From assembly GCA_014239655.1 (NCBI GenBank), contig JAAZYM010000003.1:1-40631 (forward strand): 40,631 bases of DNA, written 5' to 3'. Positions 3,515-7,637 of this stretch are shown here, piece by piece; position 1 is the first letter of the stretch, and each line of letters starts with the position of its first letter. The notes below the pieces were generated by a model. It had not been told where the DNA came from, did not search any database, and worked only from the letters and a program-made list of their open reading frames with translations. Made by a program: the position numbers and the translations under genes. The DNA comes from Flavobacteriales bacterium. GTDB taxonomy: Bacteria > Bacteroidota > Bacteroidia > Flavobacteriales > BACL11.

Positions 3515-4182
3515 ATACAACTGAATTAAAAAACAGAGGAATATTTGGCCTTATTTTTGTGCTAATCCTATACTTTGGCACTTCCTATTCTAGTATGTTA
3601 TGTTCAATACTATTTGCGGTTTTAGGACTTATTTGTTTATATGAGATGTGGCATTTAAGAGAAGGTAAAAGTAAAATATTAGCACTTGCATATGTATTGA
3701 TTCCTTTCCTATCTATACAAGATCTAATTTGGAATTATCTCAGCTTCTCAATTTATGACACTCAAGTTTGGATGTCAGAATTTATTTTAAGCTTGCTTGT
3801 ACTAACTTGGATATTTGACACTTTTGCTTTCTTAATAGGTGTTAAATATGGAAAACACAAAATAATACCATCAATCTCTCCCAAAAAATCATGGGAAGGA
3901 TTCATAGGTGGCTTAATTTTTACATTTATAGCCTCTTCTATCTATTTTAGATGTTTTCTTGAGAACTCTATGGAAGAAACCTTAATATGGTCTTTAATAT
4001 TAGCTATAACAATATCATTTACTGCATCATTAGGTGATTTTATTGAATCTGCATACAAACGACAAGCAGGAGTAAAAGATTCAGGAAACTTAATGCCAGG
4101 TCATGGCGGTGTATTAGATAGAATGGATTCTCTTATGATTTCAATGTTTATTTTAAATATCCTATTTAGATTATTGTCATGA
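3511..4182 (+). CDS. cdsA: Phosphatidate cytidylyltransferase (CDP-diglyceride synthase)
   Basis: Makes CDP-diacylglycerol from phosphatidic acid and CTP at the inner membrane, the branch point of phospholipid synthesis. The 223-residue protein is mostly hydrophobic segments and ends with the family signature: SPKKSWEGFIGG in the middle, then ESAYKRQAGVKDSGN...PGHGGVLDRMDS, with the metal- and CTP-binding Asp residues. It is roughly 40-60 residues shorter than the usual family length, apparently with fewer N-terminal/central membrane spans; the catalytic part is intact. Start and stop overlap the neighbouring genes by ATGA on both sides, tying it to psd. Confidence 0.93.
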   Translation: MNTTELKNRGIFGLIFVLILYFGTSYSSMLCSILFAVLGLICLYEMWHLREGKSKILALAYVLIPFLSIQDLIWNYLSFSIYDTQVWMSEFILSLLVLTWIFDTFAFLIGVKYGKHKIIPSISPKKSWEGFIGGLIFTFIASSIYFRCFLENSMEETLIWSLILAITISFTASLGDFIESAYKRQAGVKDSGNLMPGHGGVLDRMDSLMISMFILNILFRLLS

Positions 4183-4820
4183 AAATCCATAAAGAAGGAC
4201 ATAGCATCATAATAAATCAATTCATTCTGCTAATATTGATTGGAATAATATCAACATTTAATGATAAATTCCTTGAATATACACTCCCTATATTTTCTTT
4301 AATTATACTCTTCACTATTTACTTTTTTAGAATCCCAAAACGAGAATTCTCTATTAAAGATGGAAAAATATATTCTCCATGTGATGGAAAAGTAGTTGTA
4401 ATAGAAGAAACAATTGAAAATGAATATTTTAAGGATAGCAGAATACAGATATCAATTTTTATGTCTCCTCTAAATATCCACAATAACCTCTACCCTATAA
4501 ACGGAAAAATAGAATACACAAAATATCACCCTGGCAAATTTCTTGTTGCATGGAATCCAAAATCCTCATTAGAAAATGAAAGAAATTCTATTGTTGTAAA
4601 TAACAATAAGATAAAAATTCTATGTAGACAAATTGCAGGAGCACTTGCAAGAAGAATAGTCTCATATGCAAAAGAAGATCAGAATATCAATGCAAGTAAT
4701 GAACTAGGTTTTATAAAATTTGGATCAAGAGTTGATATCTTTCTACCAATAGGAACAAAGATTGATGCTAAATTAAATCAAAAAGTACAAGGAGGAATAA
4801 GCATTCTAGCAACCTATTAA
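4179..4820 (+). CDS. psd: Phosphatidylserine decarboxylase, short type
   Basis: Converts phosphatidylserine to phosphatidylethanolamine using a pyruvoyl cofactor made by self-cleavage. The 213-residue protein has N-terminal hydrophobic segments (about 10-48), SPCDGKVVVIEE, ISIFMSPLNIHNN and near the C-terminus LGFIKFGSRVDIFLP. Cleavage is expected between Gly182 and Ser183, leaving a small alpha chain of about 31 residues. This is the compact archaetidylserine-decarboxylase-like form rather than the approximately 300-residue E. coli type. It overlaps cdsA by ATGA, so CDP-diacylglycerol and phosphatidylethanolamine synthesis are linked. Confidence 0.93.
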   Translation: MKIHKEGHSIIINQFILLILIGIISTFNDKFLEYTLPIFSLIILFTIYFFRIPKREFSIKDGKIYSPCDGKVVVIEETIENEYFKDSRIQISIFMSPLNIHNNLYPINGKIEYTKYHPGKFLVAWNPKSSLENERNSIVVNNNKIKILCRQIAGALARRIVSYAKEDQNINASNELGFIKFGSRVDIFLPIGTKIDAKLNQKVQGGISILATY

Positions 4821-4836
4821 AATCAAATTATTTTAA

Positions 4837-4844
4837 TATATTTG
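4837..4844 (+). promoter_or_regulatory. Promoter -7 element for the Cys-rich protein gene
   Basis: TATATTTG matches TAnnTTTG and sits 26 bases before the ATG at 4871, in the only gap after psd. No TTG is seen at the -33 distance, so strength and exact start are uncertain. Confidence 0.45.
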
Positions 4845-4870: not shown

Positions 4871-5359
4871 ATGAAAAAATTAACATCAATATTACTAGCA
4901 ATATTCTTTATTGCTTCATACAATATGTCAGCACAAGATGTAGCTGCAGAAGACACAAAAAAAGCAACAACAGAAGTAGTTGAATGTGAAAGTCAAAAAA
5001 CAAAATCAACTTGCTGCACAAAGAAAAAATCAAACGGATTTAACTTTAATAAATCTAATAGCTATGGGAAATCAAGCAGCTGTTCAAGTGCTTCCAAAAA
5101 ATCAGCTTGCTGTGCAAAGAAAGAAGCCAAAAAATGTGGTGATTCATGCACAAAATCATGCTGCACAAAAAAAGAAGCTAAAAAATGTAGTGATGCTTGT
5201 ACAAAATCATGCTGCACAAAGAGTGATGATTCTAAAGCAAGATATCAAGAAGCTGCTGAAAAAGTTAGAAAAGCTATTGCAAATAATGAAATTACTGCAG
5301 AACAAGGTGATCAAAGATTATCTAGATTAGCTGAAAGAAACAAAAAAGCAAGAAATTAA
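4871..5359 (+). CDS. Secreted cysteine-rich repeat protein of unknown function
   Basis: I do not recognise this protein. It has 162 residues with a signal peptide (MKKLTSILLAIFFIASYNMSA, cleavage likely before Gln22). The region from about 37 to 116 has 14 Cys, including four Cys-Cys pairs in a Lys-rich setting (STCCTKKK, SACCAKKE, KSCCTKKE, KSCCTK). Two 17-residue units of the form KKEAKKCxDxCTKSCCT stand in tandem. The last 40 residues have no Cys and look like a charged helix pair (KARYQEAAEKVRKAIANNEITAEQ). The thiol pattern suggests metal binding or disulfide cross-linking outside the cytoplasm; that is inference. It appears to form a single-gene unit, with a -7 box upstream and a terminator downstream. 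Confidence 0.85.
   Translation: MKKLTSILLAIFFIASYNMSAQDVAAEDTKKATTEVVECESQKTKSTCCTKKKSNGFNFNKSNSYGKSSSCSSASKKSACCAKKEAKKCGDSCTKSCCTKKEAKKCSDACTKSCCTKSDDSKARYQEAAEKVRKAIANNEITAEQGDQRLSRLAERNKKARN
5117..5218 (+). repeat. Two tandem 51-bp units in the Cys-rich gene
   Basis: Positions 5117-5167 and 5168-5218 are near-identical 51-base units coding for KKEAKKCGDSCTKSCCT and KKEAKKCSDACTKSCCT. Differences are few and partly synonymous (GCC/GCT, TGC/TGT). Partial, more diverged copies of the CC-T/A-KK core precede and follow them. Confidence 0.9.
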
Positions 5360-5380: not shown

Positions 5381-5410
5381 AAGCCACTAATAAACTAGTG
5401 GCTTTTTTTA
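5381..5410 (+). terminator. Rho-independent terminator after the Cys-rich gene
   Basis: A 9-bp perfect stem, AAGCCACTA (5381-5389) and TAGTGGCTT (5396-5404), with a 6-base loop and a run of T following. It separates the Cys-rich gene from the O-methyltransferase gene, whose ATG is at 5415. Confidence 0.9.
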
Positions 5411-5414
5411 TACC

Positions 5415-6050
5415 ATGGAATTCTTAGACAAACAAATTGAAAATTATATATCAGCTCATTCAGATAAAGAACCTCAAATACTTGCTGATCTAAATAGGGA
5501 GACATGGGCAAAAGTATTAATGCCAAGAATGCTCTCAGGTCATATTCAAGGAAGAGTACTTAGCCTTTTTAGCAATCTATTAAGACCATTAAATATTATT
5601 GAAATAGGAACTTATACTGGTTATTCGGCATTATGTCTTGCTGAAGGAATAAAAAAAGAAGGGGAGCTTCATACAATAGAAATAAATGAAGAACATGCAT
5701 TAATTGCAGAAAAATACTTCAAGAAATCCAAATTTTCAAAGAATATCAAACAACATATTGGTAATGCCCTTGAAATTATTCCAAAGATTAACAAAAAATT
5801 CCAACTTGCTTTTATTGATGCAGACAAAGAAAATTACTCTAGGTATTTTGACTTAATAGTTGAAAAGATAGATGTTAATGGAATTATCATTGCAGACAAT
5901 GTGCTATGGAGCGGTAAAGTAATTCAGAAAAATATGGATGATGAAACCAAAGCACTTAATAATTACAACAAGAAAGTTCTTAATGACTCTAGAGTAGAGA
6001 ATATATTATTATCTGTCAGAGATGGACTAATGATATGTAGAAAAAAATAA
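5415..6050 (+). CDS. O-methyltransferase, class I SAM-dependent (family 3)
   Basis: Transfers a methyl group from SAM, probably to a hydroxyl on a small aromatic substrate; the substrate cannot be read from the sequence. The 211-residue protein has the catechol-/caffeoyl-CoA-type layout: N-terminal helices, motif I IIEIGTYTGYSALCLAEGI (about 67-87), LHTIEINEEHALIAEKYF, motif with metal-binding Asp LAFIDADKENYSRYF, and IIADNVLWSGKV. The start lies only a few bases after the terminator of the preceding gene, so its promoter must lie inside or before that gene, or the terminator is leaky. Proline dehydrogenase follows 10 bases downstream. Confidence 0.9.
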   Translation: MEFLDKQIENYISAHSDKEPQILADLNRETWAKVLMPRMLSGHIQGRVLSLFSNLLRPLNIIEIGTYTGYSALCLAEGIKKEGELHTIEINEEHALIAEKYFKKSKFSKNIKQHIGNALEIIPKINKKFQLAFIDADKENYSRYFDLIVEKIDVNGIIIADNVLWSGKVIQKNMDDETKALNNYNKKVLNDSRVENILLSVRDGLMICRKK

Positions 6051-6060
6051 TTCTTCTGGC

Positions 6061-7227
6061 ATGGTTGACTTTACAAATATCAAACAGGCGTTTTCAGACA
6101 AATCAAATAAAGATTTAAATAGAGCATTTGTATTATTTAAGACAATAAGTAATCCTAAGATATCATCAATATTAACTTCCTTAGTCAAGCTAGCATTATT
6201 ATTCAGACTACCTATCTCCTACTTTATTAAAAACACCATCTACAAACACTTCTGCGGAGGAGAAACAATAGATGACAGTAAAAAAACGATAAATAAATTA
6301 TGGAAATCCTCTATTGGAACTATACTTGATTATTCTGCTGAGGGTAAAAAATCAGAAGATGACTTTAATAAAGTACTCAAAGAGACACTACAAGTAATTA
6401 AAGAATCAGAGAATAACAAAAGAATCCCATTTATAGTATTTAAAGCAACAGGGCTAATACAATTTAGTGTTCTAGAGAAACTAAATACTAATAAGAAATT
6501 AAACAATATAGATCAAAATAAATTTAATGGATTCCTCGACAAAATATCTATTATATGTAATGCGGCAAAAGAATCAAATACACCGGTATTAATTGATGCT
6601 GAAGAAAGCTGGATCCAAGATGCAATAGACAATATTGTTCTTAATCTAATGAGAGCGTATAATAAAGAACATGTAATGATATATAATACATTACAATTCT
6701 ATAGAGTTGATAGAATAAAATACTTAAATAAGCTACTAGAAATTTCAAGAGAAGAAAACTTCAAATTAGGATTAAAACTTGTAAGAGGTGCATATCATCA
6801 ACAAGAAATAGAAAGAGCAAAGCAAAGAAAATACCCAATTCCAGTACATCTTAAAAAAGAAATGACTGATAGAGATTTTAATCTGTCATTAGAAATATGT
6901 ATAGATAATATTAACAGAGTATCAATCTGTTCAGGAACTCATAATGAAGAAAGCTCCGCATTCCTTTTAGAACTCATGAAAGAGAAAGAAATAGAAAATA
7001 ATGATAAAAGGATTTGCTCATCGCAATTACTTGGAATGAGTGACAATATCTCATACAATCTTTCTGCAGAAAATTATAATGTCAGCAAATATGTGCCATA
7101 TGGACCAATCAGAGAAGTAATACCTTACCTTATTAGAAGAGCTGAGGAAAACAAATCAATATCAGGACAAATGAGTAGAGAACTCAAGAGCATTGTTAAA
7201 GAAAAAAATAGAAGAAAAAATAACTAA
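6061..7227 (+). CDS. Proline dehydrogenase (monofunctional)
   Basis: Oxidises L-proline to pyrroline-5-carboxylate with FAD, feeding electrons to the respiratory chain. The 388-residue protein is the single-domain type, not the PutA fusion. Family marks are the barrel segments NTPVLIDAEESWIQDAID, the LGLKLVRGAYHQQE segment (the first Arg/Lys-rich FAD strand), an ICSGTHNE strand and the C-terminal VPYGPIREVIPYLIRRAEEN with the substrate-binding Arg pair. No pyrroline-5-carboxylate dehydrogenase gene is in the window. Its stop overlaps the opposing small gene by CTAA (7224-7227). Confidence 0.92.
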   Translation: MVDFTNIKQAFSDKSNKDLNRAFVLFKTISNPKISSILTSLVKLALLFRLPISYFIKNTIYKHFCGGETIDDSKKTINKLWKSSIGTILDYSAEGKKSEDDFNKVLKETLQVIKESENNKRIPFIVFKATGLIQFSVLEKLNTNKKLNNIDQNKFNGFLDKISIICNAAKESNTPVLIDAEESWIQDAIDNIVLNLMRAYNKEHVMIYNTLQFYRVDRIKYLNKLLEISREENFKLGLKLVRGAYHQQEIERAKQRKYPIPVHLKKEMTDRDFNLSLEICIDNINRVSICSGTHNEESSAFLLELMKEKEIENNDKRICSSQLLGMSDNISYNLSAENYNVSKYVPYGPIREVIPYLIRRAEENKSISGQMSRELKSIVKEKNRRKNN

Positions 7228-7637
7228 TCACTACATACAGAATCCTCGTCTAAGACATTTATATTCAAAACACTAACAGATTGCTCAGTATAACAATATT
7301 CAAACAAAACCTCAAAATCTTTATCCTCTATTTTATTTTCAATTAAATAAAGCTGACATGGCTCCCTGTTTTTCTCACTCTTTGAGAAATTAACTTCACC
7401 ACCATCCAAAACAGTTAAAAGCTTGAGCTTAGTAAGATCAAAATACACCAATTGACACTCCGATTTTAAAGAAAATGAGGTGCTATCAGAATATAAGTGA
7501 TTAATCACCCTCTTGTCAAGACTAAAATAATCAACATAAGCATAAAAAGTAGTTTTTAATCTATTCTCAGGACCTAATGAAAGGAAAAATATACTAATCA
7601 AAGCACCAAAACCAAACAAAATTAATCTTCTTAACAT
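7224..7637 (-). CDS. Small membrane-anchored DUF4258-like protein
   Basis: A 137-residue protein with an N-terminal signal anchor (LRRLILFGFGALISIFFLSL), then a soluble part with RVINHLYSDS..., LLTVLDGGEVNFSKSEKNREPCQLYLIE and a final strand VSVLNINVL. The GEVNFSKS...PC-Y-IE pattern resembles the DUF4258-type proteins I know from Flavobacteria, but the similarity is from memory and partial. Function is unknown. It is the last gene of the porX-tsaE unit, 2 bases behind tsaE. The three Cys in the exported part (Cys61, the PC motif and EYC) could form a disulfide. Confidence 0.7.
   Translation of the reverse strand: MLRRLILFGFGALISIFFLSLGPENRLKTTFYAYVDYFSLDKRVINHLYSDSTSFSLKSECQLVYFDLTKLKLLTVLDGGEVNFSKSEKNREPCQLYLIENKIEDKDFEVLFEYCYTEQSVSVLNINVLDEDSVCSD

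Follow-up and report, generated by a model that had tools for sequence, protein, structure and literature searches.

The window analysed here, a stretch of 40,631 nucleotides from a Flavobacteriales bacterium (contig JAAZYM010000003.1), carries at positions 4871-5359 of the forward strand an open reading frame for a Cys/Lys/Ser-rich exported protein of 162 amino acids, which we refer to as the thiol-rich protein. It has 14 cysteines, including four CC pairs, all of them within residues 39-116. Upstream, on the same strand and across a gap of 50 bp, lies psd, encoding phosphatidylserine decarboxylase (4179-4820, forward strand; Pfam PF02666), preceded by rsfS, ftsH, DUF2007 and cdsA; downstream is an O-methyltransferase gene (5415-6050, forward strand; PF01596), with a proline dehydrogenase gene beyond. 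Housekeeping genes flank the thiol-rich gene throughout the window's own family. A 137-residue protein without a Pfam match is encoded on the reverse strand (7224-7637), between the proline dehydrogenase gene and tsaE.

The gene product and its transcription unit

The protein begins with a Sec-type signal peptide (4871-4936, forward strand), recognised from the sequence itself as MKKLTSILLAIFFIASYNMSA followed by Q, with the cut predicted after Ala21. The end of the signal peptide, ...MSAQ, leads into a spacer, the Cys/Lys/Ser-rich stretch and a Cys-free C-terminal helical hairpin, and in the family alignment the signal peptide is kept across homologues in MKKLSILLLAVFFIGIANVNAQ-like form. The signal ends in SAQ and has no lipobox cysteine, a possible exception being one Cys-poor paralogue at locus L056, and no T9SS C-terminal sorting domain occurs among the Pfam and NCBIfam matches listed. 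Within the cysteine-rich stretch Tandem Repeats Finder (TRF) reports a 51-bp tandem repeat (5108-5220, forward strand; 2.2 copies, 87% matches) that encodes KKEAKKCxDxCTKSCCT, and ahead of it lies a conserved motif, GFNFNKSNSYG (approximately 5036-5068, forward strand). In the AlphaFold2 model the C-terminal hairpin (residues 120-161; 5228-5356, forward strand), which is confined to the window's genus, has a pLDDT of about 87-98 as against about 39-59 for the Cys-rich centre, and the latter is predicted to be disordered. Fold matches of this model in the PDB, to an archaeal RNA polymerase subunit, had E values of about 3 and were discarded as meaningless. A second forward-strand frame is open, without Cys, across part of the gene (4980-5330), and similar frames occur at many homologous loci; we set these aside as genes, since they are probably a by-product of the Lys, Ser and Cys codon composition.

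The start codon is preceded, at a distance of 34 bases, by the box TATATTTG (4837-4844, forward strand), which fits TAnnTTTG, the consensus of the flavobacterial sigma-A -7 box (PMC9723704). A TAnnTTTG box lies 24-40 bases before the ATG at all 38 homologous loci described below, as TATATTTG at 37 and as TAGATTTG at one, while in shuffled gaps TAnnTTTG appeared at a mean of 1.1 loci and TATATTTG at a mean of 0.18. Downstream, the intrinsic terminator AAGCCACTAATAAACTAGTGGCTTTTTTT (5381-5411, forward strand) combines a strong hairpin with a T-run at 5381-5404, and both elements recur at all 37 loci with readable downstream DNA. The sequence-only reading had given the gene a terminator of its own, which is thus a trait of the whole family, and had placed it alone between two operons. 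The second claim needs qualifying, for psd stands only 50 bp upstream on the same strand and the O-methyltransferase gene follows. The promoter box and the separate C-terminal hairpin had gone unnoticed in that reading. Because the gene has both its own TATATTTG box and its own terminator, it is probably a one-gene transcription unit, with read-through from psd possible.

Homologues and their distribution

A profile built from eight homologues was searched in the 52 genomes of the window's taxonomic family and found matches in 37, many of the others being incomplete; the window's own genome holds a single copy. The corresponding slot was then read in the DNA that follows psd or precedes the O-methyltransferase gene. 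A homologue was present in each of the 38 slots that could be read (the window included), which cover 14 of the 15 genera of these uncultured marine Flavobacteriales. Together the 38 loci yield 42 exported proteins of 106-175 residues, with two tandem copies in each of two genomes and three in genome G012. The upstream neighbour is psd at 36 of the 38 loci, and the O-methyltransferase gene is next downstream at 37, the contig of the remaining one ending first. In genomes G014 and G015 psd lies elsewhere, yet the homologue is still found beside the O-methyltransferase gene.

Outside the taxonomic family no clear homologues were found, and records there that contain the O-methyltransferase gene had neither psd nor a homologue nearby. 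Searches of Pfam, NCBIfam, PHROGs and PDB profiles gave no usable match, and a phage collection gave no match. The weak and scattered matches that did appear (YSIRK lipase, EbpS, Phr, phrog_2682, galaxin, Meg, NIP_1) apparently reflect the signal peptide or composition, and order-wide profile matches in families f6 and f3 were not accepted as homologues, being driven mainly by the signal peptide. Two of the f6 loci (L127 and L128, near 800-870) encode proteins of 126 residues with a signal peptide and six cysteines (CGKCGxKxKKGCCK) that probably form a separate family. The earlier description of the gene, which credited the protein with a signal peptide, 14 cysteines, four CC pairs and a 51-base repeat but recognised no matching family, is therefore accurate as to the open reading frame and the repeat and is borne out by the database searches, and conserved homologues do exist. 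Loss or random frameshifts in relatives, which it had named as counter-evidence, were found at none of the readable loci. The thiol-rich protein thus represents an undescribed family, with a member at every locus of its taxonomic family that could be read.

Selection, repeats and the conserved motif

Values of dN/dS for the thiol-rich gene are mostly 0.2-0.45 and all below 0.7 (one pair 0.66, one near 0.05), and exceed those of psd in nearly all comparable pairs; the protein is fast-changing, yet under purifying selection. A chance origin of the reading frame is excluded, since homologues are kept in 14 genera and no dN/dS value reaches 0.7. In pairwise alignments Phe (0.97) and Cys (0.91) are the best conserved residues, against 0.83 for Lys, 0.73 for Ser and 0.55 for Asn. 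The number of cysteines per protein ranges from 7 to 17, and length and repeats differ between lineages. The window's repeat multiplies a module, KKCGxxCTKxCC, which is found in three genera; in homologues of genera other than the window's, CGxxCTKxCC is present as one copy. The tandem duplication proposed from the sequence is accordingly best described as a lineage-specific duplication of one module, other lineages having expanded other units, such as CSKSEKKA-like ones.

Variants of GFNFNKSNxYG are present in 11 of 14 genera, the members from g11, g12 and g13 being without the motif. Its DNA pattern (5039-5065 in the window) was found among the 52 genomes only at the thiol-rich gene, and a reversed control gave none. 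At locus L056 of G012, two tandem paralogues that are poor in Cys (731-1258 and 1304-1624, counted from psd) retain the motif as INFNKTNNY; one of them has it twice, together with a possible lipoprotein signal.

Cysteine pattern, charge and redox setting

Against shuffled sequences, CC pairs are enriched (87 observed, 51 expected), as are Cys spacings of 8-9 residues. CxC and CxxC fall far short of expectation, at 5 observed for each against about 50, and the pattern stands when only one protein per genus is used. It is unlike that of classical metallothioneins, zinc fingers, heme-c sites and CxxC redox proteins. His and Met are almost absent from the homologues. Of 40 proteins, 18 have an odd number of cysteines, with no bias toward even numbers, although these sequences are related and not independent. 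Net charge lies between +5 and +22 in nearly all Cys-bearing members, whereas it is below zero for L045 and the Cys-poor paralogues.

Profiles for DsbA, DsbB and VKOR each found nothing in the 52 family genomes, and neither did that for MNIO, the bufferin enzyme (PF05114); controls were detected in all cases. The DsbD transmembrane domain, on the other hand, is present in 43 of the 52 genomes, among them all 15 of good quality and the window's own. Judged from these profiles, the known routes to periplasmic disulfides seem to be absent from the lineage, although oxidation by oxygen or by a further enzyme may take place in these hosts. Because DsbA, DsbB and VKOR are missing, DsbD is common and odd cysteine counts are about as frequent as even ones, free thiols are likelier than a disulfide framework, and the disulfide-linked structure that the sequence-only reading had offered as one possible role is disfavoured.

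Comparison with known systems

Like the bacterial metallothioneins SmtA, MymT and PmtA, the thiol-rich protein is small, rich in Cys and Lys, poor in aromatic residues and not expected to adopt a fixed fold without metal; unlike them, it has a signal peptide and avoids CxC and CxxC. When 29 members were searched against Pfam, the best metallothionein profile was Metallothio_Cad, with an unconvincing E value of 0.049 for one member. Periplasmic metal binding, the other role suggested by the sequence-only reading, is still a candidate, but with a Cys pattern that does not look like that of a classical metallothionein.

Bufferins and oxazolins are MNIO-modified, Sec-exported, Cys-rich RiPPs for which periplasmic metal buffering has been proposed (PMC12452194), and the thiol-rich protein shares with them a Sec signal peptide and a Cys-rich mature part. 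However, no maturation genes lie near the thiol-rich gene, DUF2282 is not among the Pfam matches, the sequences of the homologous loci contain no EGKCG repeats, and because MNIO is absent we rejected a RiPP identity.

Look-alikes were found in five genomes of genus g17 in family f3, which encode exported K/S/C-rich proteins of 53-68 residues (genes at L141, 2670-2870, reverse strand; L142, 3147-3338, forward strand; and L129, 797-1000, forward strand). Those at L129, L132 and L142 have a signal peptide and the SCSxxEKKSC...CCASKK style of the thiol-rich protein, but they are shorter, lack the GFNFNK motif and stand at other loci (sulfur, thioredoxin, cydAB). In four of the five genomes the gene is in or beside an operon that encodes rhodanese/metallo-beta-lactamase (MBL-rhodanese), YgaP-like, thioredoxin, HMA or TauE proteins, or cytochrome bd. 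Against a profile freed of the signal peptide, composition shuffles matched the score of the look-alikes in 12, 0 and 9 of 2000 cases; because the score thus beats most but not all shuffles, homology to the thiol-rich family is no more than suggestive. The look-alikes do point towards sulfur or metal handling.

Discussion

Given an exported protein that keeps its cysteines while its length and repeats change, several readings were considered. The CC pairs might join many copies into a cationic network, a disulfide-crosslinked matrix in the envelope or on the surface comparable to the dicysteine structural proteins of the galaxin type, which also have repeated CC pairs. The enrichment of CC, the regular 8-9-residue spacing and the expansion of repeats would suit such a network, and one of 29 members has a weak match to the Pfam profile Galaxin_repeat (E 0.0018). 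That is the single Pfam match of this kind, however, and a host with DsbD but no detected oxidation machinery, together with odd cysteine counts in so many members, makes a crosslinked matrix rather unlikely. Alternatively, the protein could be a polycationic envelope component that attaches by its Lys-rich tail to anionic LPS, capsule, phospholipid or DNA and whose GFNFNKSNNY motif docks a partner, the cysteines being secondary. The prevailing positive charge fits, as does a motif that is widespread, unique in each genome and retained by the Cys-poor paralogues of L056; but aligned Cys is better kept than Lys, L045 and those same paralogues are negatively charged, and three genera lack the motif, so that we regard this reading, too, as improbable.

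A periplasmic carrier or sink for sulfane sulfur (persulfide) in place of a metal buffer would agree with the rhodanese-MBL, YgaP-like, thioredoxin and TauE operons in or beside which the g17 look-alikes occur. Since the homology of these look-alikes is unproven and the window's own family has no sulfur gene next to the thiol-rich gene, we consider this reading quite unlikely. Repeat slippage, AAA-rich codons and rapid divergence might even suggest a neutral low-complexity product of drift in an A-rich genome, without any function under selection; this is very improbable and is already contradicted by the conservation seen here, in that every readable locus is occupied and has a promoter and a terminator, dN/dS stays below 0.7 and Cys is the best kept residue after Phe.

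The explanation we prefer, with a probability of roughly 0.45, is that the exported protein serves as a buffer of reduced thiols, useful through how many thiols it carries and not through its fold. We infer a constitutively expressed gene whose product would be exported by Sec as a largely disordered, positively charged protein rich in free thiols. In a periplasm that lacks oxidation by DsbA, DsbB or VKOR but has reduction by DsbD, the CC pairs and the regularly spaced single cysteines would stay reduced. Whether periplasmic or at the cell surface, these thiols could take up or buffer soft metals (Cu(I), Zn, Hg/As-like ions), or else reactive sulfur and electrophiles, to the benefit of the cell. 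The lysines would balance the thiolate charge and keep the protein near anionic envelope surfaces. If function depends on thiol number, length and repeats would be free to vary while the aligned cysteines are kept, as we propose. The occupation of every readable slot in a family with small genomes and a conservation of aligned Cys second only to that of Phe support the thiol buffer. So do the gene's own promoter box and terminator, the low dN/dS, the presence of DsbD where DsbA, DsbB and VKOR were not found, the many odd cysteine counts, the predicted disorder of the centre and the gene neighbours of the look-alikes. Against it, the GFNFNKSNNY motif and the Cys-poor G012 paralogues are left unexplained by thiol buffering, no metal or sulfur gene is adjacent, the relation to the look-alikes is weak, the protein avoids the closely spaced ligand pairs that metals usually favour (CxC and CxxC), and His and Met, which are frequent periplasmic copper ligands, are scarce.

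Whichever function applies, uncultured marine bacteria with small genomes have retained an unannotated, lineage-wide core gene together with a promoter and a terminator of its own, in a lineage that perhaps forms no periplasmic disulfides by known routes. A more specific proposal, which we advance tentatively and with some doubt, is that in a clade without known disulfide-forming enzymes a dedicated, always-present, exported and disordered thiol reservoir from a new protein family buffers periplasmic soft metals or sulfane sulfur and is tuned by the expansion and loss of Cys modules. If the protein is indeed a reduced extracytoplasmic thiol buffer, these bacteria would have a means of dealing with copper or sulfur that needs neither bufferins nor classical metallothioneins nor disulfide chemistry, and the family would be a case of a disordered protein conserved through its number of thiols instead of its fold.
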